This document shows, in pieces, positions 4,172 to 36,700 of a stretch of 64,000 nucleotides of DNA. The stretch spans positions 13,952,501-14,016,500 of the forward strand of contig OY540822.1 in assembly GCA_961205875.1 (NCBI GenBank). The letters run 5' to 3'. Both the position numbers and the translations under genes were made by a program. The notes beneath the pieces were generated by a model. It had not been told where the DNA came from. It ran no database searches and saw only the letters and a list, made by a program, of their open reading frames with translations. The stretch comes from Sialis fuliginosa (taxonomy: Eukaryota > Arthropoda > Insecta > Megaloptera > Sialidae). Each line of letters starts with the position of its first letter. Positions within the stretch are counted from its first letter, which is position 1.

Positions 4172-7100
4172 CTAATTATAATAATAAGGCATGTCGCATC
4201 CGAACTTAGCCATATGAGCAGCTGTTTTAACAGCGTACAGGTCTGAGTGGTCTATATAGGCGTTACAAGAGTAACACCACACAGAGAGGTCATCAAATCC
4301 AAGAGCGAGGGAGTGAGAATGATCGTAGCAGTGCTCTTTCACATGTCCGTTTTTGTAGACTGAACAGCCCACCTAAAAACAAACAGTTTACTTTCGCACA
4401 AACGTTAATTGGTATGTTCATGTACCATGAAACATGTCAAGCACATCCAGTTTTCTTTGGTTAACTGGCAAACTTGACAAGGTGCATGGATATCGATACC
4501 GGACTCTGGAACATCTCTGAGATGGTTAAGGTGGGGGCAGTCTCTAATTGGCTCAATGCTATAGCCCTGAAACAGATATTACAAAAATAGTACTTCCTGG
4601 TTGTTACTTAAGTACAAGTATATTGTCAAAAAAATACTTTAAAATAAAGGTATAAGGTAGGACTTACTGCAAACATATCAGATTCTTCATCAGAAGCAGG
4701 TGATTTATACTCAGTCCTTGTCATTAGGTTCGGCCAGTATTTCTTGTGGATTTCAGCCACTTCGGCCAGAGTTTCCCTGGCACTTTTGCAGACTACCTTA
4801 TTTATCTTCAGCGGTGGGAGAGGGTCCCCAAGCAGTGCTTTAACACAAGCGACAGTTGAATACGCCACAGATGTAACATTGTACCCTCCTTCCAAACACA
4901 TGACAATCTTGCCTTGAGCCAATGGCATCAGCATGGCCGTAAGGTGACCAAACATTTCTGGAGTTACTTTACATTTGCCTAGTGGGTCGTTAACAGCTGC
5001 ATCAAAACCAGCTGACACAAGAACAACCTCGGGATTGAACGCATATGCAACTGGTAACACGATTCGATGAAATGCAGACAGGTATTCAATATCACCCATA
5101 CCTGCCTGAAAATGCAAGACATTTAATGTATTGGAAATACAGACACAGTAAATGTATACTCTATCTTGCTTACTTTTTTCCAAGGGACGTTCACATTGTA
5201 GCCTTTCGCATGAGATCCACCTATCTCGGAAGAGTTAGCATCTTTACTTCCAGGGAAGAATTTAGCATCTTCATAGCGGTGGACAGATATATATAAAATT
5301 TGTTCGGTATCTTTAGTTGTGTTCTGAATTCCATTACCATGATGTATGTCGAAATCTATGATCAGTACCCTACAAGAGAATATATTCAATAATCAATGTT
5401 GATCCAATTAAAGCCAGAACAAAATAAATACCGGTTAAGTTTAAATCTTTTGATAGCATAGTGGGCTGCGATTGAAACATTGTTGAAAAAACAGAATCCA
5501 CTCGCACGGTCTCGTTCGGCATGATGGCCTGGTGGACGTACCAGAGCAAATGCCGACCTGGCTTTATCCTTGAGAACCAGCTCAAGGGCCATTAGAACAG
5601 ACCCAACAGCGATATTAGCGGCTTTTACAGTGTATTTCATCATATAAATTGAATCAAACTTCTTGACAATTTCTTCTAAGTCTCCATTATTAAGTAATGT
5701 GATGTAATCAGGATCATGAACAAGCTCTATAACACTGTCTGAAGCCTCGTATCCCTTTTAGAAATAAACATATGAGAACAAATACAACAAAATAATATTT
5801 ATATAGGATGATTATAAAGTAAGCAACATTGATATTATAATCTAAAAGATTGAAATCTCTATCACTCAAAAGAGCTGAGCACTTAATAAATTTGCTATGC
5901 AAGTAAAAAATGTTTGTTTTTTTTTATAATAAATATGACAAATGGTAAATGGTATCAGTTTCTGTTGAAATTATTAAATATACTCACCAGTTTACAGTTA
6001 CAACGATCAAACACCCCAAAATCCTTGAGAAGATCCATGGTTTTTATAATTCTGTTTGGAATTTCATAGTGTGAGAATCCTATATTCTCATGAGCAGTCA
6101 TGCGGTCCTCGTAGATTATTGCTACTCCGGATTCAGTGTTTCTTAATTTTGTTTTTAACTGAAGTTCTTTGAGAGTTGCCTCAATTTGAATTTTCGTTTC
6201 ATCGCTGTGTTTGGTGTAACAATCTCTGGTAGGGTACTTTTTTGTTTCATCACGTTTATAAGGTACATATTTCTCCGTATAGAGATCCTCTGACATTTGA
6301 ATAAAATCAAAGCACCGCCAATATTTGGCATGGTGTCTAATACAGTGGTATATTGTGTCCAAAACACTAAAACATGAGTTTTCAGTATAGATATAACGCA
6401 ATTTTAAATATTTAGCAAGAAGTACCTTTCGCAGGGAGGTGATAGATCTTCAAAAGAAGGTGCTGGTTCGCCTATCAGAGCTCGTATAGTCATAGCTGCA
6501 GATTCAGCCAAAGAAGGTAAACAGTATCCTCCTTCTAGCAGCGCTAAAATTCGTCCTTTAGCAAGTTGCATTAGACACTGAGTCATAATGCCGAAGAAAG
6601 CTGGAGTAATTAGCATTTCCCCCTGTCAAGTTCAATGTTGCGTTATCAGTTTAATAAGGAAATAATTGATTCATTGTTATGTGACAATCAATACTCAAAC
6701 TTTACTTATTTAACATCAAAACAAAGTTACCGATACAGCTTTACATTTAAAATTAAAAACAATTCTAACCTTTTCATCACCAATGGCAGAATCGTAACCC
6801 GCCGAAATTATTATGAGTTCGGGTTGAAACTATCAAGAAAAAAAAATACGTTACTAAAAAATAATAAAATATGCACACCTCTGGACATCCGATGGCAGCA
6901 TCATATCCTGCTGATATGATAACGAGTTCCGGATTGAACTAAGAAAAAGAAATTCAATTATTTTTAGTTATTTAAAAAAAAATATAGTAAAACATCACTA
7001 AATATGGTAAAAGTCCAATACAGGGTGGTTACTCCTGAGGTTTTTCTTGTTATTGTAATTACTCGTGCTATGGACCAATAGTTGCACGACTCTTTACAAG

Positions 7101-8390
7101 TATATAGCAAAAAAAACAGCTAATTACGTTTCGAGTAATTAAATGACCTAATTAGACTTTTAGCCTAAGTAATTCAAAGTTCATACCTCGTACGCAACAG
7201 GAAGCAAGACGTTTAACAGAATCGAAAGATAATCACCATCCTTCATACCAGTCTTATTTAACGGCACATTGAAGTTGTACCCTGCTCCGCTCCCAGCACC
7301 GATATAGTCATAATTTGATTCTTTTAGATTGGGCCAAAATGCCCCATGTTCAAATCTATGAATAGAAAAGTACAGCACTCTGAAATAAAACACAAATCAT
7401 TATCATAATGTAACTTTTCAGTGATGAATATTATTACTTATTGCTCTCATAGAATATTCGCTGTGTTCCTTGTCCATGGTGTACATCCTGATCAAATATT
7501 AAAATTCTATTGAGGCCGTGTACCTCAATAGCTTGAGTAGCTACTATAGCTGCATTGTTATAAAGGCAGTAACCATTGAATTCATCAGGAGATGCGTGAT
7601 GGCCTGGTGGGCGGACCAGAGCCATGCCATTTTGAATCTTGCCGCTCATGAGAGCGTCTAACAGATTTAGACATGAACCAACAGCTGTTGATGCTGCTTG
7701 CCAACTCGCCTGCAATATTAAATCATATAAAACTGATGTTAGTACAAACAGATTAAATCAAATCACTAATATCTACCTCATTCACAAATATAGCATCACA
7801 CCCTGCTGAGAACTCTTCTTGTTCTTCAACTGATAAATTTGCAACAGATTGCAGCAATCCTATTTGTTTTTCATCATGTACAGACTTAATTTCATCAACT
7901 GTTGCTTCTCTTGAAGCTATAATTCTGCACTTTTCAGTCAATTTTAGTTCTAATAACCTGTAATATGATATAATATAATAAAAGAATCAATACTTAAATA
8001 AACATGAGTTTACCGTTCTACAATCGATAAATAACGGTTCGGATTTTCGGGGTATTCATTATCCCACGGACAATAATATAAAACATTGTCTTCATTTATG
8101 GTTAATCCGGTTTTTAATCTTTCAGCTGTTTTGCTATTGGCCATCTGAAAAAACAATTTATACAATTATTATATTCCTGATTGATTCCGTAAGTTGCATC
8201 TTACATTTTCATATGGGTCATGAACAGTGTTAAAATTTTCAACTTGGGATTTTTTGGATGTTTTCTTAATTTCATCCCATTTGACCTGCAAACATATAAA
8301 TAATATCAAATAAACAGGTAAAGGTAAATCATTATTTTGTGTACATACCTGACTTCTAGTTTGCATTTTGCTTTTGGCAATTGAATTCAT
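4172..8390 (-). CDS. HDAC6: Histone deacetylase 6 (two catalytic domains plus ZnF-UBP)
   Basis: I rebuilt 14 constitutive coding exons: 8349-8390, 8205-8285, 8014-8144, 7777-7957, 7438-7709, 7187-7379, 6426-6622, 5988-6366, 5432-5754, 5174-5369, 4668-5105, 4426-4566 and 4172-4372, with either 6879-6938 or 6770-6829 as the remaining exon. Phases close to a protein of about 944 residues, shorter than human HDAC6 (1215). Domain 1 has RPPGHHA (His182/183), DQDVHHG (about 218-224), AGYD (Asp313) and LEGGY (Tyr353). Domain 2 has RPPGHHA (His589/590), DFDIHHG (625-631), AGFD (Asp720) and LEGGY (Tyr760). Both have a full metal-binding and tyrosine set. A UBP zinc finger with paired Cys/His follows from about 832 to the end. 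The family deacetylates tubulin and other cytosolic proteins and binds free ubiquitin C-termini. The start is the first ATG before a short basic leader. Confidence 0.97.
6770..6829 (-). other. HDAC6: HDAC6 alternative exon, version b ([11 protein letters not shown])
   Basis: This is a second 60-nt exon with the same phase, acceptor TTGATAG and donor AAG|GTTAGA. It encodes a homologous 20-residue block ending [12 protein letters not shown], with 14 of 20 residues identical to version a while the two differ at many synonymous sites. It lies only 49 nt downstream of version a, so use of both is unlikely. Inclusion of both would add 20 residues in frame and duplicate the metal-binding loop. Confidence 0.85.
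6879..6938 (-). other. HDAC6: HDAC6 alternative exon, version a ([11 protein letters not shown])
   Basis: Sixty nucleotides, phase 0 in and out, with acceptor TTTTTCTTAG and donor GAG|GTGTGC. It encodes 20 residues ending [12 protein letters not shown], covering the third zinc ligand (Asp) of catalytic domain 1. It joins VLLPVAYE of the previous exon to [10 protein letters not shown] of the next. The residues after the Asp resemble the usual insect HDAC6 sequence as I recall it. Confidence 0.88.
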
Positions 8391-9828: not shown

Positions 9829-12800
9829 ATGGGAGAAATCAAAGATTTATTGGATATTATGGATTTATTAAATGGTTTGTTTTTTATTGTAATATTTGTA
9901 ATATAAATAGGTACATAATTTTATCATGAAAAATTTATAATTTCGACTGTCATTTGCAATTGAAGGATCGTTTTAAAATTAATCGTATATTGGATTTTTT
10001 TTCTCGCAGAACATTGAATTCTACTTTCAATAATTAGTTTAAATCAGTAAATAAGTTTAAAAAATAAACACAATTGTTTATACAAAGTTTCCTAATTTCT
10101 GAATAAAATGTGAAAATAAATCTTCTCAAATATATTATTATTGTTGCTACAATTTTTTAATCCCTGGGATTGTATTTCAAACGTACATACATTTGTTTGT
10201 TTTTGAATTAAAAAACTGAAATGTATAAAAGTACAATTTTTTTTTTTGAAAGTATGCATTTTTATTCCCGAAAAAATATCAATAATTTTTTTCACTTCCT
10301 GTTCAAATACCGCAAATTAAGATATCTTAAATAAAGGGGAAATACTTAATACAGGGGCGGCTGAATATTCAGGAAAGGCTCCCACAAGGTGGGGGAGGAT
10401 GAACTGACAGTCAATATTTTTTTAGTCGTTATATTAATTATTTATTAGGGCCAAATGTAATAGAAAAATAAAAATAAAAAATAAAGTATTTTTATATAAA
10501 ACATTTTTTATATTAAAGATGATAAAACTGTGCACAATTTTCCGGAGGAGGAACGCTATATAAACTTCCCAATTCCTAGGGGAAATAAAAAATGAAGACC
10601 TCAAAAATTGCATTATTTAAAAATATTTTAAAGAAAGCACAAAACGAATATCTAAAGTACTGATAAATAAATGATTTTTTACATTTTGTTTGGGTACATC
10701 CGGGAAATGAATACATAAAACGATAAAGATTAATTAAATTTGTTATACATGCATTTTATGTATAAACAAAGACAATAATAACAGTGGTGTAACTACGATA
10801 AATTTTGAGGCCCCTCCCGCAAAATAATTTTTGGTGGATTTTCTACCTCCTCCCCTTCACCCCGCAAAACCTAATTATGCTAATTAATAATAAACAACTT
10901 TACGTTTGAACTGCGTAGAATAGAAAATTATATTTTGTACAAAATCATGCTTTTCAAGATATTTATTAAAAAATGAAAAATCACTCAGTTGATGGTAATG
11001 GTAAAAACTATATTAATTAGTTTCGCTGGCACCAACATATATTTCACGTTTTTATGTACTATTTTATTTTTTTTCAGATGTTTGCAAATTCCTTAAGGAT
11101 ATTTTATCTTTCCTGCCTTTGGAAACTCAAACGCAGGCAAAAAAATTAATACAAAAAGCTATGCAACATATAGAAAAAGTTCCAAAATGTAACGAATATA
11201 TTGCAATGGACCAGAAAAATAATAAAGGTAAAAAAAATATTTATTTAAAAAATGAATTCATGAGTGCCCAGCCTTAAAGTACATACCTCACAAAAATATT
11301 GAAAAAATTGAGTTCGTAATTTTAATAACTAAGAACAATAATATATATTTTAACACGTGTGTATCTTTTAGATAAAATAGAAGAAATTAATGAATACATC
11401 GATGTTAATTTAAACCAAAAGCCAGTAAATAATTTTCCGGCCCCTAAAGAACTTGTACCAATAAAAAATAGTCACGATTGTTCAATCGACATTTTCCCAC
11501 ATGAAAATCTATCGTATCAACAACTTATTGGTGCTGCATTAAAGGTATTTATTTTATAGAACTGTTATTATTATCTTATCATACTGTATTATCTTTCCCT
11601 GGAAAACTCCCGGAAAAAAGCTAGATTTTAATGGCAAAAATCAAAATATTTATTGGACTTTGCACTGGTGCAGCCATGGTAAAATTTTTTTTTAATATAT
11701 AAATTTCTGCAATTGAATTAAGATATACTTTATTTATTTTTTATACTTGCTAAAAATAAAACATAACTATTTTTTTAAATAAATTGCGTTACCGCGAAAT
11801 AAAATCCGTGGCGAGGAGGGGGGGGGGGGGGAGGGTATGCAATGTCCTCTTTCTTCCCGCGACAAGTTATGAAAGAATAATTTTAAAATACTTTTATAAA
11901 GATTTGAATTTTGATATTTAAAAAAATATTCTTATTTTTTAATTCTTATAATTTCTACTGTTTTTTACATCAACAAATCAAAATATGTTGTCACTGCAAT
12001 TAGATATATATTATATTATATAATTAAATGTATTATCAGTCACATGATATGAAACACATTTTTACAGTCAAACTTCGTTATGATGATTACTTATAATAAA
12101 TATTTTTACAGACTGGACCCCTTTTAAAAAAAGTGAAGAAATTATTTGTAGAGCAAAATAAAAAACAATATGCTGGTCTTCTAGATCATTGGTTGATACT
12201 TTATAATACTGAAAATGACGTAAAACCTGACTGTTTTTTTCTTCTTACTGAATATAACGCTGAGCCATTTGAGAAATCAGGAAAAGAAACATGTTCTTTC
12301 AAACTTGTATCGAGTATCGAGAAAAAAAAGCAAGTACAGGTAAAATAAAACAAATAAATACCCATTGGATTCATATTTATTTAAATAAATAATTTTAGTT
12401 TACAGCATCATCTTTAATAGATATGGAGCAATGGGTAGAAGCCATAGTACACGCTCATATAAGTCATTTGCAAAAAGATGTAAAAAAACAAACAGACAAT
12501 AAAAAACGGCGTACTCTTCCGAACGTACCATCTGTAGATATAGACGAAGAATATCAAGAGATCTGCGTAGACTTAAAGCTACCGGAAGAAGATATACCGG
12601 AAGAAGATTATCACGAAGTAAACTTACTACCACCGCCTCCATTACTTGAAGAAAAGAGAAAAAATACTGCAAGTAGGGAGTCATTTCCACCACCACCTAC
12701 AGAAGAAGATTATCAAGATATTGGGCCCAATTTACACGATCTTCCACCTCCCCCTATTATCGATGATTTCCCCCCTCCTCTTGATATTGATGACGATGAC

Positions 12801-14354
12801 GAATATCAAGAAGTTGGTCTTATTGTTACCGATGTTAAAATGCCTCCGCCCCTGATAATACCTACAGATGATGGTTCTGATGAAGAGTATCAAGAAATAA
12901 GTGCCCAATCTAGAATAATTGCACCTATATCATATTTACCTAAAGCTCCATCTCCGTTTAGCTATAAAAAGTTACCTCCAATTCCAACTGAAGAATTGGA
13001 CGAAATGTCGGATGATATTTATTCGTTTATAAACCCAGAGGCTGAAGTAATAGAAGAAGAACCGTTATACGATGACATAGAAAAGGTAAAGAGTCAAGTA
13101 AATGAACTGATGAGTAAATCTGTAAGTAACCCACTTCCGGTTGAAGAATTTAAACAGAAAATAGGAAATGCGAAAATAATGAAACTTGCAAACGACGCAA
13201 AGAAGTTTCAATCTAAAGATAATTTTATTCCGCCGTTAGAAAATATATTTGCCAAGCAGTTTAATATAAGCACAGAGAAAATTAATGAAAAAGAGGGTCT
13301 AGAAAATGATGAAGAATTATATGATGATATAAGTAATGTGAAACAACTTATCAACAGTAATTTAAGTGCCGCCAGTATTGTACCTGCGATAATAGAAAAT
13401 GAATGTGAAAAGGAATTGGTTTATGATGATGTGCAAAGTCAAAATATGGAACAAACCGAAGAAATGTATGATGAAGTTAGTGCAAATGTTCAAGTTAATA
13501 AACTTATTAAAGAAGAAGAAGAAGTCTTGTATGATGACACAGCAGAAATATTACAGAAACCAAAAGAGAAAAGGCGATTTGGTTTACAGAGAAATAGTAG
13601 CAAATCAAATGTTCAGAAAACAAATATTAAGCCCCCCATAAGTAATCCGATTTTAGATTCCGCCACAGAGAAAAAATTAGAGGAAAAAACAGGAGGTGCT
13701 GAACATATAATAACGGAAGACTTACTTTATGACGATGTTAAAACGCCCCAAACTACCAAAAATACAGGACCGAAAAAATATCCACCGGAACCGCCGAAAC
13801 AGACGAAAAATAAAAGTTTCTTTTTACGAAAACAAGCGACTAATAAAAAATTACAAGATAACACCGATACGCTTAAATCAAATAAAATAAAAAATAAAAA
13901 AGTCATTCCACAAGAAACAAATACAGAAATAGAAGAAATGTATGACGATATTGACAATGTTTCTTTAAAAAATCAAACGAAGAATAAATCTTTCTTCACG
14001 AGGAATAACGAGAAAAAAAATACAAATAATAAGAAATCTGGAAAATCTAATAACTTAGCAGAAGAAAAAGAAGAAGAATTGCTTTACGATGACGTGCAAA
14101 GCAGTGTACTACAAGAACATATTAGATTGTTAGAAAATCAAAAAATCACCACCGAATCGAAAGAAGTAAAAATTACAACTTTCGCTTTATCGCAACGGCA
14201 AATTAACTCAGCAGGACTCGAATCAAAATACGATACTCATAGAACTGTAAAGCCTACGAGCATAAAACAGAATAGTTACAATTTATCAACTGCTCAAGCG
14301 AGTCAGTGTGAAAAAGTCGAACCCATAGTATTCAGATCATTCAAACCTAAATAA
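9829..14354 (+). CDS. SKAP-like adaptor: N-terminal helix, PH domain, long tyrosine-motif tail
   Basis: Exons 9829-9874, 11078-11227, 11372-11544, 12112-12339 and 12399-14354 join in phase to about 850 residues. The N-terminus (LLDIMDLLNDVCKFLKDILS) resembles the SKAP dimerisation helix. Residues about 124-222 form a PH domain ending FTASSLIDMEQWVEAI, close to the FTAAS...EEWV end of SKAP2. The last exon encodes five YQE/YHE/YQD motifs (Tyr251, 270, 304, 335, 363), one DDIYSF (407) and eight YDD/YDE motifs (423, 507, 541, 556, 577, 643, 714, 762). It also has polyproline runs and two TKNKSFF repeats. Vertebrate SKAP has one YDDV and one YEEL plus a C-terminal SH3, and dimerises and docks Src kinases and FYB/ADAP. 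No SH3 is encoded before the stop. The start is the first ATG of the frame; an upstream non-coding exon is possible. Confidence 0.78.
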
Positions 14355-15303: not shown

Positions 15304-18300
15304 ATGAATATTTTTGCACAAATATTAACAACGCTAACTTTATTTTTGTATTTAATACACGCCTATGAAATAGATTGTAATCACCGTAATATAACCCTAA
15401 TGGAGCACCAATGGAGATTATTTAAGGTAAGTTTATTAATGATTTAAATTTAATTCTATTTTTGAAATAAACACTTATTTTAGCACACGTATAACAAGAC
15501 GTATACTGGTTTAAAAGAAGCTCGAAAAAAACGAGCTTGGATTGAAAATTGTTTTAAAATAAGTAAACATAATATTGAAGCGAAATTAGGTTTGCATACA
15601 TACACTTTAAAAGCAAACCATATCTCAGACATGGTAAGTACATAATAAATACATACAGTAATATCTCCATTTACGCGGTTAATTGGTTCCACGAAAAAAA
15701 CACTTCATTAAGTTTTTCCAAACTTTTTCGTATAGGTGAATCCACGTAAATAGAGGTATTACTTAGTTCTAGATTACAATTGTTAATAATTGAATATGTG
15801 AGACGCTATTATTTGTATATTGAAAAAAAAAATTATTTGATGAAATTTATAGACATCAAGAAGTTATAATAGAGAAATGGTAAAACTTACGAAAAGTCGA
15901 AGGCGAAAATTACTGGTTAACGATATTGTTGGCCGAATTCATCATCAGGATTTACCACATCAGGTAAATTTCCCGCGGCTTCGGTCGCATTTATTTCAAA
16001 ATCAAAACATTTTCATATTTTTTACATATAAGAAAATATATAACAATTGAATTTTTCTTAATTAATACGTGTTTGACATAATTAATCAATATCAATTATG
16101 ATCTAATTTAATTACTTTCTTGTTATTTTTATATTTTTTTATTAAAAAATATCAATTTTTCCTTAATTATTAGACATAAAAACAGAGAAAGTTTTGTAAA
16201 AAATCGGTTTATAAAAATAAAATTATTGGTCACGTTCACAACTGACCAAAAACAATAAACAACGAGCTTTGATTGGTTGATTCATAGAATTTCTGGTGGA
16301 ATGTACCAGAAATTTAAAGAATGTCATTCTGAAGTGAGAAAGAAGTAACCAGAAAGAGATAAAAACTAGTGTTCTGGCAGAAACGCTGAACATGAAGTGA
16401 ACATAAAAGTTCTTTGGTTAGCCTAGTCACTTCCTTACACGTTACACGCTTAAAAAATGACATTCTTTTAATTTCTAGTACATTCCACCAGACATTCCAT
16501 GAATTAACCAATCAAAGCTCGTTGTTCCGTTTTTTGGATCAGTCGTGAATGCTCCCATTATTAACAGATCGACTGGAGAGAAAAGGGATTTATAACGCCA
16601 GCTTACAACCAAAAAGATTGTGGTTCATGTTACGCGTTTAGTGTAGCTAATGTCGTACAAGCCCAATACTTTAAAAAGCATAATAAACTGATACCTCTAA
16701 GCGAACAACAGCTGGTCGACTGTAGCACAAAAATGGGAAACTACGGCTGTGCCGGTGGGTCTTTAAGAAATACGTTACGTTACATAGAAAAAGTCGGAGG
16801 ACTCGAGCCCCAAACAAGTTACCCGTATATCGCCAAGGTAAGTACTAGAGCCCTGTAGAGCAGCGTTTCTCAACCTTTTTTTCATAGCGCCCCCCAACCA
16901 TACAATAATTTTATTAAAACATCCTTCGAAAAACTTTGCTCTGCAACAGTGACGTAGATAGGGGGGGGGGGGGGTCAAGGGGCTCAATCCCCCCCTATGA
17001 GTCTACTTCATAAGAAAACTCAGACATTTTTTTAAACTCTTCTAGTATAAACAAAATCAACTTTTTTTAAAATGCAATAGTTAGTACGAAAAGAGTCTAA
17101 TAGAATTTTATTTTCAGCTTTTTAGTCGGTTTTAAAAGGGCAAATTAATTTTTTTATATTTTTTATTATACATACATGAAATATACTGTATAATAAAGTA
17201 TAGTAATCATGAGATTTTAACGGAATTACACGTATTGAGGGTCCTTGAACAAAAAATATGAGATTAAATACTAATGTAAGTCATATCCCCCACCCCATCG
17301 CAAAAAGCTATCTTCGCCACTGCTCTGCAAGACAGCCCCAAGGGAGTCAAGTCAATTTAATATTGATAAGTTAATTATTAAATACATTGTGCAGTACTGA
17401 TACAATCCTATTTGTAAGTGTATTATATCAGTGTAAGTGTAAACGTGTATTTTATTTTGTATTATGTCAGAAATTGCTTTTCTTTCAGTAAATTAAATAC
17501 ATTTTTTAATAATATTTTTTCTCGATATGCTCGCGCCCTCCATTTAGTTTTATCACGCGCCCCACAGTGGTGTATTTACCGTAAGTGCCGCTCTGGGCAA
17601 AAAAAAAATTGCCGCCCCTCTACCAAGGGAAAATATAATTTATTTTTGATAGAAGTCAGAATTACTATATGAACTGAAAAGTGATAACTGTTTTTATAAG
17701 CGATGTAGAACAAAATATAATGTAAATTAAAAACTGGGGACCTTTTTTCTTTTTCTTTTTTTGGTCACGTCAATTAAAATTCCTAATTTTATTAAATAAA
17801 AGTTTGGATTACGTAATTTAAAACTTGAAGACCTATTTTTTTAAATATTCTGTATTAAACTAAAAGAAACTAAAGAATCTGCCGCCCCTCTCAGTCTACC
17901 GCCCTAGCCCATGGCCCCATGGTAAATACGCCACTGGCTCCACAGGTTGAGAATCGCTGCTGTAGAGAGTTAAAATTCTAATTTCAAAACTAAGCCCGCA
18001 TTTTTTTTGTAGCAATCGAAATGTAAATATAATTCGCATCGTTCTGTAGCTAACATATCTTCTTGGGCAATTTTACCAGCACGAGATGAACATGCTTTGA
18101 AAGTAGCTGTAGCTCAAATTGGACCTTTAGCTGTATCTATCAACGCCAGTCCACACACATTTCAACTATACCAGTAATTATAAAAATATATACTCTTTTA
18201 TGCGGTAGATACGTTTCACAGCAAATCATTTAAAAAAGATATTATTTATATTGTAAAATTAGGGATACGTTCCATAATTTTCTAAAACCAATTTAAATAG

Positions 18301-20361: not shown

Positions 20362-23300
20362 CTAGCCTTTGTTCTCGATGATAGTAGTTTGCAGGCCTTT
20401 CTCGCTCACTGTGGTCTTATATTGCTCAGGTATTGGATATTCTGTATAATCTCCATCAGACTTCGGTATCATGACGTTCATTTCAGAAGATTTGGAAGAT
20501 ATGATTTCTACGTCCATTGAAGCTTTGCTCAAGTACATCTGACATCCATCAGTTTTGTCAATGGATATTGTTGGTACCTTACCAAGAACCTGAAATATTT
20601 AAATGTTTGGCTACCTTAAGTCTATATAATTAAATACAAATAATAATTTACTGACCTGCATTTGTACTGACTGGCAGTTAATGAATTCTACGGATGCAAC
20701 AAGACTATCAAATACAATTGATGTTTTCTTACAGGAATCCAACACGACTGAATTCAGTTTGCCTTTTACAGTTAGCGTAGAGTCTGTGCATTTGAACATG
20801 TAGATTACATTGTTCATCTCAACAGTGTCAATAAGCAAATTGCGGTTCCCTTTTTGATACTCCTACAATTAGTTAAAGATTGTTAAAAATCATGTTTTTT
20901 ATTAAGAATGTGATTTAGCGTACAATAAGCCATTTCTTGCCATCGCGACTGAACACTGGAGGTTTATCTACAGCGACTGGAGGTTTCACAGATGTTGTTC
21001 CCGCAGAAGTAGGAGTTTTAAATGGAGCTGGACCAGTGCGTAATGTTGGGTTTTTGTGCGTCTGCATATCGTCTGTTACTTTCTTTAAAGCTGTTCATGA
21101 AACAAAAATACATTACAAATGACACCTTGCGGTCAAAAACTACTCCACTTACATTTTGTTATATCCTCGCCTTGATTAATTTGCGCAAACAGTGCAGCTC
21201 GTTCATCATTAGAAGGATCACCAAGTGAAAGGTCATCTAAAGGTAGCATCGGTGGAGGTGGTGGCATACCTCCTGGAGGTGGAGGGGGAGGAGCAGTTCC
21301 TTTACCAGCCCAAATTAGACCGGTAGTATGATGTTGTTTCACAAACTGTTGTAATTCTGTCAGTGTTTGTACCCATGCCTTTACCCATTCTACGTGTGTT
21401 TTATCCTTTTCTTTCCACTCTTTCAATACACGATTTGTATAAAATTGTCCTGCATCATTCATTTCTTTCACGTAAGGAGCAGGAGCAGGGCTCTGTTTAA
21501 AAAATAATTATCAGTCAAGTGTCACATCAGTAATTAAAAAAATAAATTACCACTCCTATCAGGTTTCTTAAAGTTTTTCTAAACAAAGTTTCTACAGTCA
21601 TGATATAAAATATCAGAAAATCTATTTAAACAAATTATTCACAGATTTTTAAGAGAAATGGGCCAAAAGCTCAATTTTCTATGGGAAATATAACAAGTAA
21701 AAAATTTCAGCGATTTTTCCATAGACAAAAGTATCATATTATGTGTTAGTATCTATGGATATGGCGATTTCAGCAGCATGTCTTTTTGAAAATTCGCGTT
21801 AAAATTGGTGTTATGTGCTAATAAAAAATCATGTAAAAGTTAAAAAGTGTGTTACTACATATAAATATCAGTTATTAGTGATAATCATTCGAATATATGG
21901 ATAAATTCGAAGCCTAAAGGTAAATACAAGCAAATATTTAATTTATTGTCATCACCTGATTGTTTGTTTAAAATTTGTTTATAGGTAAACAATAATTATA
22001 TACAGAACCCTCTTATATTAAAATGAACTATTTTTCATTCGATAATTATGATAAGATTTTAAATTAAATTGCTTATTAATAAATTTATAATATTTACCAC
22101 TGTAACCCATCCTAGGGCAGGTATACTTTCACTGATCGCAGATAAATGATTGAAATAAGTTGATGTACGATTCTTTTCTCTTAGTTCTTGTATAGCACTT
22201 ATCTTTTGACTAGTTGGTTGCAAGAGGCTTATTTGTTGCGATTGTTCTGGTGCCTTACTTTGAGCAGCTATCGTTAAGTATTGTAATTGTGCTCTATAAA
22301 AAAAAAACAAAAAAACTGGTAGATCATATCTATCGTAAAAAGAAACAACACAATTAACAAAAAAACTGATATATCCACATTATCTACTATTTACAACACA
22401 ATTTTAAATAATTAATTGTATTCTGTCATTAATTTTCTTATTTTAAAATCAGTTTTTTCGTTCCTTAGTAACTATTTGAGTTACTAAGAGATTTGTTATT
22501 TTTTCAAACATTTCCGTAGTCACATTTGATCTTTAATAATAGGTATATTTTCTGAATTTTTATTTTAAAATATCAATATTTTTCATTATATTAATTGTTA
22601 CTTATTATATTTTAGCCTGACGATGATTCTGTGAATCGAAAGCTTGCGCGATTACTTTTTATAATAAATTTTTGATGTTTAAACAATTAATTTGTTTTTA
22701 TTTATTTATTTACACTTACTGGAAAGCTTCTTGAACAAGCCTTGCATGGTTTGCAACTTCACCGCCTATCTTCCCAGAAAGAGTACTGTAATTTGATAAC
22801 GGCCCATGTATAATATCTTTGAAAGCGTCTACACTCATTTCGATCACAGGTTCTGGTTCGTTTGTATCTGTACTGAATAGTGCTGGTGATAGTTTAGTTA
22901 TTAGAACTGTTGTTTTCTCAAGACGATCTGTTATAGTTTCTAATCGGACTATAAGTGATTCTAACTCGGTTGGAACTAAAATTTTTGATTGGTCAGTTGC
23001 TGAAACAAAATTTAATTATTAATTTTCAAAAAATAAAAATACTGCGTGAAATATAAATTTAATAAAAAAAAGTTTCTGGGCTACTTATCTCTAAGATAAT
23101 AAAGCAGCTAAATTATGTACCATCATTTTTTTGTATAAATAGTTTGTTATATTTTTGATAATGTAAGTTACTAAGTACATTTAATAAACAATAACTACAG
23201 TTAATAAAAAAAATCAAGAAGAATCACGAAATTTTTATTAGATTAATGTATGACATTGTTGCATTTCCTTTGAAATTTTTATAAATATTTAATAAAATTC

Positions 23301-30784: not shown

Positions 30785-33700
30785 TCAAGATAGTTCCCCA
30801 ATAGGAGCATTTTCCAACCATAGATCGTGGAGGAAATTGTACAAGCAATCACTCACGGCAACCTGTCATAACGTAATTTCAAGTTTATTATTTCATTCAC
30901 AATATAAAGTACTGGCACTAGTCTTCTCTCCAACTCATGTTACTAATAAAACAAATACCGCTTTACTAAATCAATTTAATTACCAAAGTCTTTTTATGTT
31001 TTTTCTCCAGCACTTATGCCCGGTATTATAAAGGACCTAACAAAATTTGTTAGCTAGCAATTACATTCAAATGGGGTATTAATACTGTACTAGTATCTAT
31101 GGATTAGTTATGAAATTTAGAGCAGTGACACTTCAACTAATTGTAACACAGTTGGCATCTTTGACCGTACAAAATAATTTTCATAACATCACCACTGTTT
31201 TAATACCGTTTGTATTTACCTTCAACGCGTGCGCGAAACTTGTCAAAGTCATCAACAAACTCCAAAAGAACTGTCATATAAGTTTGATATCTCAGTTGAA
31301 AGTGTTTGTTAGCTAACAAATTTGTTAGGTCCTTTATGATACCGGACATTAGTGATGGACACTTGCTAATGATAAGTACTACGACACAAAAGTTATCGTA
31401 AAATTTTGAAACAATATAAAGCAGATGCTATGTTAATATAATTACAGGGGTCAAAACTGGTCAATATGTAAAATCAGTAAACGTCAGTTTTTTGTAACTC
31501 GGTCAGTTAAAACAGTTTTTTGAAAAAATGGTCAGTTTTGTCAGTTTTTTTGGTTTGGCACTCAAAGTTTTCACATCGGAGCCCTATTTATCGTGAAGAA
31601 ACTCACTATTTGACTTCAAAACGACATAATTACCGTGTAACCGGAAAAACGTTATTTTTTGCCGGAACAGAACCGAAATAAAAATATCGGTTTTTACGGT
31701 TCAGTACATGTTAAAATACGCGCGTTAACATGATCTTATTTCCCACTTCAATTGTCGTTCGGACTATCATAAAAGTACCATAAAATGTTCTAAATTATGG
31801 TAGAAATTTTTTTTTTAATACAAATAATATTTTTTAAATTAATCACTCGGAGCTGAACCGAAAACCGGAAAAATCGTTATTTTTTTCGGAACGCAAACCG
31901 AAACGAAAAAAATAACGGTTCGAAGCCCTGAAAAATATATTCAAATTATAATTAATGTTCTATTTTGTCTACTTATTTGTATTGTTTATTACCAAATTAT
32001 AAAAGTATTTTTTTAATACATAACATCTACATTTTTTAACTCGGTTCATATAGTCAGTAAAAGTCAGTATTTTTAGATTTCTGTGTCAGTAAAATCAGTA
32101 TTTTTGAACACTGAACTTGTTTCGACCCCTGTAATTATTTGGTCGATTAGTATCTGTAGATTATGATTCAGTAATGGCAGTAGTAATCAAATATCAACAA
32201 ATATTTATAATTTAGTCCAACACTGGTGTCAGTACCTTATGACTCATACAACCTATGTTCTCTGTAATGCCCTATATTGTTTAAGCCAAAAACTTTCAAT
32301 TATCAAATTTAATGTATGTTTAAATAATAAATAATGTTGTGAAATTTTGATAAGAAGATCTGGAATATAAATAATTTTTCAGCGACCTCTATTTTATTTG
32401 TTTCGACTTTGAAATAAAAAAATAAAAGAAAGCACAGATTACTTTTAATTTGATTTTCGTTTATCTGTTGTCACGAAAAATATGTTTAAGCTTTTTGCAG
32501 ATAATAATTGATAATTTTAAACAAAAAAAAGTAAATAGAATTAATTTAAAACCTAAGGTAAGATAGTTAAAATTTATTAACAGGATATTATGATAAACCA
32601 TAATTTTTCGTAAACACATTTAAAAATCTGCCATAGGAGCCACGGACTTTCTTATACGTAATACTGACAGTGAACAGTGCACGTTATTTTTATTTTATTA
32701 AAACATATTACTGACATAGTATTATTCTCTACTACATGTACCAAATGAATTTTCTAACGTAATTTTTGAAATAAGAAAAATGTTTTAGATAAAAACTGTC
32801 GAGTATGTTATTATCTATAATTTATTTTTTTTCCAAAATTTATGATTTAGCCAGGAATAATTTTTTAAAATAATTAATTAGAATCACATACACTGTTCAC
32901 TTTCAGTAATACGTATAAGAAAGTAGTTCCATGACACTCATGGTAGATATTTCTTCTCTGTTATGGACCATTTGAAATGTAATTAAAATTTTTTTCTTCA
33001 AAAATTTGATTTTTTGAAAAAAATGAATAGAACATACATTTTTAATCTGTAATTCGCACGATTTCAAAAATAATTAAAAATTAAAAAAATGATATCAGTA
33101 AACATCGGTTTCCAGCTGAAAGATCGTTTTCAAAAATAGGTTTTCTTCCCAGACAAAACTGAATCTTAAATATAAAATTACAGACAGACCGACACACAGA
33201 CATCATGGCGAAGATAGTCAGAATGGATTCAGGGAAGGTTTAAATGTATTTCTATCAAAAGCATTCATTCATATATATATGTACATAGGTATAAGAAAGT
33301 AAAAATAGTTAATTATTCAGTTTGGAAATTCTAAAATCAATGTTAGTATGTTAATTGAAAAAATATGTGTATCTTTACCTTATACGGCGTAGGGTTAAGA
33401 TTCCTCTTAATATCCGTACGCAGAGTTCTAAGAGATGCAGAAACCTTTTGCCTTACTTCTGTCAAAGTAGGCAAAGGCTCTACAATCCTTCCACTTTCCC
33501 AATAAAGCTTGTGCAGTTTCTCAACCTTTGTTGGAATAACGTATGCCCTTTTGGACTCTTCAAAAGGGTGTCTGCACAAGACCCTCTGTCCTACTTCTGG
33601 TGGAGGTTCTACAGATCGCTGAAGAAGGTCGATTAATGCATGACCACTTGTCCCATATAGCCTGTAAGCATCTTTACGTCCGGGCATGGTTACTTTGTCC

Positions 33701-36700
33701 ACATCTTGGCTTAGCTTTATTCTAGGTTGGTGGTTGATTTCTACCATTTTGTAAACACAACCTAAAGCTGGCTGACGTTCACATGTGACTAAATGAGTTC
33801 CTAAAAGGTTAATTTATGTATGAGTACATATTTAATCGACATAAATTTATAATTAGGGAATTCGATTTTCAGGTTTAACGATTTTTTTTCGTTTAAAGTT
33901 TTTTAATTGACTGTAACTCGGTCAATTTTCTGAATTTTAACTTAATTTATAATTTTTCACAGTGGTTTAGTATGAGGATAGTTTCGTTAAAAAATCTAAA
34001 AACCGAAAAACCAATATCCTAATGATAAGATACCGATTCCAAAACAGTCAATGTCGTGGCCTTGTTCGTTCAGACTCAATATGGTATCTTCATTGATATC
34101 ATTCGATGCCATAATCGTAAGATGTTTGAACCAAGGTAGGTCGTAAGTATCAGCAATCTGTGTAAAATACTGTCTCGCCACATTCGAAAGATACGCCAAA
34201 TCGCCGCTGTCAATCCTTATTCCTAATGCATGATAGCCCAAATCGTTCAAAGCCATTGATACTGCACAAAAGTTGACAAGGCCACTTCTGTTAACACAGA
34301 ATATTTTGTATTAATATACAGTAAGACGAGTAGTTATTGACCATCAAAATGTATTTTGTTTTTTATTTCATGCAGCAAAAATTAATTTACTTTTTTAGGT
34401 ACTTATTAGATGGAATATTTATAAAAAGAAGCAGTAATTAATTGGTATTTAACTGTCAGAAAATACTTGTAAAAGGGTCAATAACTACCTCAAATACCTT
34501 ACTTACAATTGATTTTTGTAAGTTTGTATTATATGAATTAATCAAACATTGATTTTCTAAATAAAGCGTTACAAATGAAACTAATTAATAATGAATTTAG
34601 CATGATGTGTCAAAGTGAAGCGTTAGTATAAATTAAGCTTTTATGCTGAAACATGCATGGTAATGAAAAAAATATACTCAGTTTTGCGTTTAATAAAAAA
34701 ATAATTAATTTCTACCAGAGATTCGAACCGTAACAAATGGTTAGTAAAAAATTCAGGCGGTTTCAGTTCGAATCCCTGATTTCTACTTTTCTCATAATGC
34801 AATTGGTGTTTGAAAATAATATATAAATAAAATATAATTAAATAAATAAATAGTAACTAAAAAAAGTTTAAAAAATTAATTAAATAATTTTTTTGTGCAT
34901 TTTTTTGTGAAAAAAGTGTGACAATTTTATTACTTATTTATTAATCAGAGAACAGTAAATATTGTTAGGCAAAGTTGAGAAACTTTTGTAAATTCATGTA
35001 GCCTGAATCCTACCTTTATGAAAAATTCCTTCAATAGAATAGAATGAATCAGTATTTTCTAACTCTGTTTTAAACAAAAACATAAACATAAAATAATTCT
35101 GGCGTTTCGAAAGGCACATTTATTATTACTGAAGACAACAACAAAAAAAAAGATTCAAACGATACAAATACATTTTAGCAATGATATAGATGAGTTAATC
35201 TTACAATTCCCAGCTATTTAATGTTAATGCACATAACATGACGGAGATTTTTCATTCTTTTCTTTTTGTTTCAAAAAATATGTGCAACACCGACTCGAAT
35301 AAAATAAAACAACTTAAAAATGTCGTCTACCATGGAACCACCAACCACTCTTATTCAAATGGAATTTTCATTTCCTATTCCATTTGATTTTAACATTCAC
35401 TCAAAGTTTCAATACTAAAATAAAAAAAAAAATAAAACATAATTAAACTAACACATATTTTTATTGGCAAAACCATGTAACCCAGACCCCGCTTTACGTA
35501 TTTTCAATTAACATCAATTCCGAAGTTGTATCGTTAAACAAAAATTTTAAAACTTCATAAAATTTTGTTGCTACAAAGAAGTTTATTCTGCAACCTAAAA
35601 TATGAACTTTACGAAAAAATATTTCTTAGATTGTTTGCATGCTAAAACCCAAAATGATGATTTTAGTATTTTTTATGAATTTACTATCCAGAAGGCATTT
35701 TTTTAAGTTTTGTATTTGCAGTAACAAATAGTACTATCTAATTTTTTAAAATGAATTTAAAACATTTTTTATTATACGATTTATTTTCGTCGAGATATAC
35801 AAGTTAGTTTGTGTGTTAAAAATTTGAGAACCCCTGCTATAGTGTAATAAGTAATAAATTATTATCCAATTAACTTTTGTTAGAAACATTTTTCTGTGAA
35901 GTTAATATTTTAGACTGTAAAATCTATGTTTCTTATATTTCTCCACCTAGATAAAAATAGAACTAATAAACTAATTTTATATAAATATAAATATTTGTCT
36001 CCAAAGGTTAAAATTCTTTTTGCGTCGCGTTTTCAAAGAACGTATTACCGACACAAAGCGATGTCTGAGTATACCAATACATATAACATACTGCTATATT
36101 CTGTACAAGATAGAACATCTTGTTCAATAATTAAAAAAAATATTTGCTGTAATAGCGATGTTAAGACATTATTTTTTTATAAAAATTGATAATATAGAAA
36201 AACCCTAGCATGCAAATTGTTTAAAAAAAAAAGTATTCGTAATTTATAAATAATACAGTAAATTTTCTTTCGCATATATCCATTTAACAAATGACTCATT
36301 CCAAAATTTTAGAAATACCAGATGGATAAGTAATAACATATTATTTTTTTTTGCGACATAGTACTCCGGAATTACCAAACATATAATTTTTAAATTCCCA
36401 AATGTGTTATTTGCTATACATACTAATTAATTACAGACATATTAATCAAAGTAATTAGGAACAATTACAATATTAAAATCGATCGAAAAATAGATAGTTT
36501 GTTATTAATATACTTTTTAACACGTCTTCCCTTATTTATTTTTATAACTGAAAATAGAAGAATTGTTAAAGAAAAGAATACAGTAGGGTCGCAGTTATAA
36601 AGAACAGTAATCCTCTCATTTACGCGGTTAATTGGTTCCATGAAAACGGTGCGTAAAATAAAAGTATTTCCATTTTCTTTTCCACACTTTTTCATCCGCG

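Follow-up and report, generated by a model that had tools for sequence, protein, structure and literature searches.

Putative alternative exons that would reverse the charge of the gatekeeper residue in catalytic domain 1 of HDAC6 from Sialis fuliginosa

The HDAC6 gene of the megalopteran insect Sialis fuliginosa carries two intact and constrained-looking exons, here called A and B, each of which keeps the reading frame and ends in a codon that places its own charged residue, Glu or Lys, in the gatekeeper column of the first catalytic domain (CD1); this much is established in the sequence. Probably, A and B are old alternative exons of which one is normally included, and the swap between them would reverse the charge of the gatekeeper and, by analogy with the characterized class IIb enzymes, the substrate preference of CD1. 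The gene lies in a stretch of 64,000 nucleotides, referred to here as the window (assembly GCA_961205875.1, contig OY540822.1, positions 13,952,501 to 14,016,500 of the forward strand); the coordinates of its features are collected in Table 1.

Table 1. Features of the HDAC6 gene and other exons of the window; position 1 is the first letter of the window.
Feature	Position	Strand	Remarks
HDAC6 coding span	4172..8390	(-)	all joins GT-AG, in frame
HDAC6 exons 1-6	8390-8349, 8285-8205, 8144-8014, 7957-7777, 7709-7438, 7379-7187	(-)	
Intron upstream of A	6939..7186	(-)	248 nt
Putative alternative exon A	6879..6938	(-)	residues 301-320; zinc-ligand Asp313; gatekeeper Glu320; PEG motif with next exon
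Intron between A and B	6830..6878	(-)	49 nt
Putative alternative exon B	6770..6829	(-)	residues 301-320; zinc-ligand Asp313; gatekeeper Lys320; EKG motif with next exon
Intron downstream of B	6623..6769	(-)	147 nt
Shared downstream exon	6426..6622	(-)	starts with GEM; holds the catalytic Tyr of LEGGY (Tyr353)
HDAC6 exons after A or B	6622-6426, 6366-5988, 5754-5432, 5369-5174, 5105-4668, 4566-4426, 4372-4172	(-)	
CD2 block equivalent to A/B	4980..5039	(-)	gatekeeper Leu; within a single constitutive exon
Papain-family protease exon	16565-16858	(+)	
Cyclase-associated protein exon (CAP_N)	21133-21507	(-)	
Nicotinate phosphoribosyltransferase exon (NAPRTase_C)	33343-33813	(-)	

The gene is complete in the window and has 14 coding exons with either A or B. 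The joins from 7187 to either exon, and from either exon to 6622, keep the frame, and the spliced translations of isoforms A and B are both of 944 residues without internal stops. In the isoform-B protein two stretches matching PF00850 (Hist_deacetyl) and one PF02148 (zf-UBP, residues 861-922) were detected; among PDB entries, CD1 is matched best by chains of vertebrate HDAC6 and next by HDAC10, and no family match was obtained for the CD1 region in NCBIfam. The alignment revealed that the catalytic columns are kept in CD1 as well as in the second catalytic domain (CD2), i.e., the tandem His, the Asp/His/Asp zinc ligands and the catalytic Tyr, and that the aromatic positions of CD1 are present (Tyr72, Tyr192 and Trp251). 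With a zf-UBP behind its two class II deacetylase domains, and with the catalytic residues intact, the gene is, on sequence grounds, an HDAC6. Elsewhere in the window (12399-14354, forward strand) there is an open frame of 651 residues that has no Pfam match and is rich in runs of proline and in YDD/YDDV repeats; it has the look of a large signalling-adaptor exon.

A first-pass annotation of this DNA had described A and B as exons of 60 nt in phase 0 with good splice sites and with 14 of 20 residues identical; all of these features, together with the coordinates, were reproduced, and each exon is preceded by AG and followed by GT. It had also placed the zinc-ligand Asp in both exons, as is indeed the case for Asp313, which occupies the column of D267, a zinc ligand of zebrafish HDAC10. 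The exchange was framed there as one of the surroundings of this ligand; a change near the active site stands, but a sharper description is that the last codon of each exon encodes the gatekeeper. According to the alignment this codon corresponds to residue 320, which is Glu in A and Lys in B. Joined to the shared next exon, A reads CPE/GEM, giving a PEG motif, and B reads DEK/GEM. CD1 of the fly HDAC6 probably reads GCPEGEM, of the Glu type. The column of residue 320 is that of E274 of zebrafish HDAC10 and K353 of human HDAC6, and the remaining catalytic residues fall in the columns where they were expected. Through the block, which aligns without gaps, this column shows Lys in CD1 of human and zebrafish HDAC6, whose CD2s both have Leu here, as does the CD2 encoded in the window.

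The gatekeeper has been described as a hot spot for substrate specificity: Lys confers on CD1 a preference for C-terminal acetyl-lysine, and Glu confers on HDAC10 one for N8-acetylspermidine (PMC5454378). In the same report, the E274L change of HDAC10 lowered polyamine activity 20-fold and raised lysine deacetylase activity approximately 100-fold, and the gatekeeper was regarded as necessary but not sufficient. This position has also been named PEG in HDAC10 and PKG in HDAC6 CD1 (PMC11532494). The two charged gatekeeper types reported for class IIb enzymes in PMC5454378 are thus precisely those that A and B provide.

The residue at this column was also inspected in more distant relatives and in the other deacetylases of the same genome. 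The relatives were 80 loci on genome contigs, the best 80 of 587 confirmed, whose record titles are bacterial except for one that is archaeal. Among these best 80 of 587, the motif is absent from 7, including the sole archaeal record, and in none of the 73 motif-bearing bacterial relatives is the gatekeeper charged (Leu in 62, Met in 5, Ile in 3, Ala in 2 and Val in 1). In the genome of S. fuliginosa (392 Mb in 20 contigs), a family search gave 14 matches, which correspond to HDAC1-, 3-, 4-, 6- and 11-like loci, names that rest on motif reading. A charged gatekeeper was found in none of the five other HDAC domains of this genome; it is Leu in the HDAC1-like, HDAC3-like and HDAC11-like loci and in CD2 of HDAC6, and also in the HDAC4-like locus, where it follows a two-residue insertion. 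When this genome was queried with the zebrafish HDAC10 domain, from which the L1 loop had been left out, 17 matches were obtained, which fall in the HDAC6 gene and in the HDAC3-, HDAC4- and HDAC1-like loci; a separate HDAC10 locus was not found with this query in an assembly that may be incomplete. Among viral contigs, no relative was detected with the single CD1 protein as the query; with an alignment as the query, 18 contigs (L106-L123, IMG/VR) were seen to encode class II deacetylase relatives of 24-37% identity, which is too low for an insect HDAC6. The genome is also rich in TTAGG repeats, as fits an arthropod: a 30-base pattern gave 2,420 overlapping matches in the forward and 3,473 in the reverse direction, with arrays near the end of contig C1 and, among the first 100 places, short runs internal to it. 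A search for Chorion_1 gave no match, although its controls gave none either.

Outside the block encoded by A or B, CD1 is 43.6% identical to zebrafish HDAC10, 42.2% to CD1 of zebrafish HDAC6 and 41.7% to CD1 of human HDAC6, and is therefore about equally distant from HDAC10 and from the vertebrate HDAC6 CD1s. Within the block, B is further than A from the HDAC10 and CD2 blocks, and equal to A in its likeness to HDAC6 CD1. Trp251 is also Trp in HDAC10 and in vertebrate CD1, and Tyr72 and Tyr192 occupy the positions of F105 and Y225, which provide the steric bulk of human CD1 (PMC5454378). The Sialis gene resembles vertebrate HDAC6 in the order CD1-CD2-zf-UBP, in the identity of approximately 42% outside the block and in the Lys gatekeeper of isoform B; however, the human and zebrafish chains that were aligned have one version of the block, whereas the Sialis gene has a second one, with Glu. 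The Lys gatekeeper of HDAC6 CD1 is accordingly found in isoform B and not in isoform A. The Glu gatekeeper (E272/E274) and PEG motif of HDAC10 are found at the same column in isoform A and not in isoform B. In contrast with HDAC10, the Sialis CD1 lacks the PxCE 3-10 helix, since its L1 loop has the length of that of HDAC6 CD1 and the alignment with zebrafish HDAC10 starts at query residue 20; furthermore, the gene to which it belongs is an HDAC6, whose CD2 looks active and which encodes a zf-UBP. To our knowledge, HDAC10 has no zf-UBP. Its second domain has been reported to be a noncatalytic pseudo-deacetylase (PMC5454378). The missing helix, the active-looking CD2 and the presence of the zf-UBP argue that the gene does not belong to HDAC10. 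Although outside HDAC10, isoform A may work like it. Given that zebrafish HDAC10 without the PxCE helix handled both substrate classes (PMC5454378), isoform A is predicted to be mixed or cation-preferring, and not a strict polyamine deacetylase.

The explanation that we favour is that one HDAC6 exon was duplicated long ago, and that its copies A and B would be used alternatively, normally with one of them included. The swap would keep Asp313 and the rest of CD1, and would replace the gatekeeper. Isoform A would then prefer acetylated substrates that are cationic, for instance acetylpolyamines or acetyl-lysines in basic contexts, by analogy with Glu274 of zebrafish HDAC10; isoform B would favour anionic substrates, for example C-terminal acetyl-lysine, by analogy with Lys330/353 of vertebrate HDAC6 CD1. 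From the features described here, it may be expected that both exons are used, usually singly, and that the charge swap alters substrate choice. The domain affected is CD1 alone: as had been anticipated in the first-pass annotation, the altered part is the rim of its active site, and CD2 and the zf-UBP are identical in both isoforms.

Given that A and B differ in six residues, of which the gatekeeper is one, effects beyond its charge are possible. The exons could be truly exclusive and the swap could tune or damp CD1 activity, or affect contacts with proteins or the binding of inhibitors, while most of the catalysis falls to CD2; we hold this to be rather unlikely. The absence of the HDAC10-specific helix would agree with such a role, as would the report that N8-acetylspermidine was undetected in a Drosophila model of polyamine disease (PMC9310527), a result that argues against a large role of this substrate or else fits its efficient removal. 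On the other hand, the CD1 catalytic residues that were checked are intact, and the two gatekeepers match both charged types of class IIb enzymes (PMC5454378), a charge seen in none of the 73 bacterial relatives from the best 80 of 587. It is also doubtful, and would go further than the charge reversal that we favour, that a single gene covers two vertebrate enzymes, with isoform A as an acetylpolyamine deacetylase of the HDAC10 type, isoform B as a peptide deacetylase of the HDAC6 type, and the substrate class set by splicing through one reversal of charge. Human and zebrafish HDAC6 act on an acetyl-lysine peptide >100-fold better than on N8-acetylspermidine (PMC5454378); as a counterpoint to this poor polyamine activity, the CD1 gatekeeper of the vertebrate enzymes is Lys.

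Another aspect of the pair is how joint inclusion would be avoided. The first-pass annotation proposed that the short intron between A and B could sterically prevent it. The length of this intron holds, and is the shortest of 14 in the gene; however, the steric argument carries little weight, given that an intron of 53 nt elsewhere in the gene must be removed in both isoforms, and no notable RNA structure was found. Mutually exclusive exons of human genes have been surveyed with a distance of <50 nt from the donor to the branch point as the steric criterion (PMC5740500). The best branch-point-like site in the A-B intron, TAGTAAC, is located 28 nt from the donor (approximate weights of our own), and, judged by the branch points that we picked, the majority of the other short introns in the HDAC6 gene would fail this human yardstick too. 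The RNA fold of the A/B region is unremarkable (z = -1.17; an equally good fold was obtained for 11 of 100 shuffles), and gave no signal of an exclusion device. Between 6600 and 7220 there are eleven pairs of inverted repeats of 9-17 nt, mostly A/T-rich, a count given without a chance expectation. With both exons included the protein would have 964 residues, and with both skipped 924; the frame is kept in either case, so that nonsense-mediated decay would not enforce exclusion. Likewise, the donor scores of A (9.1) and B (7.1; AAG/GTTAGA), calculated with approximate weights of our own, are inside the range of the other introns of the gene (0.4-11.6), and hence nothing forbids joint inclusion. 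That the exons are not exclusive, with B (or A) as a cassette exon and a protein of 964 residues in which the block is repeated, is nevertheless improbable: the preserved frame and an intron merely 4 nt shorter than a constitutive one would allow it, but a second SAGYD block ahead of the L6 loop should disrupt the fold, and A and B both appear constrained for the same role.

We take A and B to be probable mutually exclusive exons. They are adjacent, homologous, of equal length and in the same phase, and both have splice sites. In being tandem, of equal length, in the same phase and near a functional site, they resemble the homologous mutually exclusive exons of Dscam, Mhc, 14-3-3zeta and MRP1, a class of exons described in general terms in PMC7954323 and PMC6071210; unlike these, the exon swapped in Sialis includes a zinc ligand, and its last codon is precisely that of a residue known to determine substrate-charge preference.

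The age of the duplication can be judged from the comparison of both exons. They share 40 of 60 bases; 12 of the 20 differences are at third positions, and 10 of the 14 residues common to A and B are encoded by different codons, so the duplication appears old and both copies look constrained. In agreement with this, dN is 0.23 and dS is saturated. When 20 changes were placed at random on A, at least 14 shared residues without a stop were obtained with P = 2e-4, and under a harsher null, in which A is constrained and B drifts, this was reached by 117 of 36,425 pairs simulated at this distance (P = 0.003; mean of 9.5 shared residues); both nulls assume base composition and transition bias, and 20 codons are few, so that these P values are rough. 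The old duplication under purifying selection proposed in the first-pass annotation is hence supported by the codon differences, by dN and dS and by the simulations. In both strands of the window, the motif [SA]AG[YF]D occurs only in three places, i.e., A, B and the CD2 block. A and B are best read, from their sequences, as old homologous copies of one HDAC6 exon, both looking constrained, and exon B is unlikely to be a dead copy. It is very improbable that B is a duplicate in decay that is seldom, if ever, included: its donor is weaker than that of A, and it shows less likeness than A to the blocks of HDAC10 and CD2, although equal for HDAC6 CD1, but it has no stop, its phase and splice sites are intact, and it keeps its 14 residues at a saturated synonymous distance, well above the average of the drifting pairs.

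Among the titles and abstract openings listed, there is no report of mutually exclusive exons in HDAC6 or another HDAC, nor of a Glu gatekeeper in HDAC6 CD1. Isoforms of this kind may already be present in automated annotations of genomes. HDAC is absent from the main text of two papers on mutually exclusive exons (PMC7954323 and PMC5740500); PMC3923563 does not contain HDAC or deacetylase, and PMC1949830 does not contain HDAC6, HDAC10 or mutually exclusive. Homologous alternative exons as such are known; in this pair the exchanged residue lends itself unusually well to interpretation.

If splicing makes both charged gatekeepers available from one gene, this would amount to a switch experiment made by nature, and would bear on the role of CD1 of HDAC6. 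It would also point to an enzyme that may act on acetylpolyamines in an insect in which no HDAC10 locus was detected.
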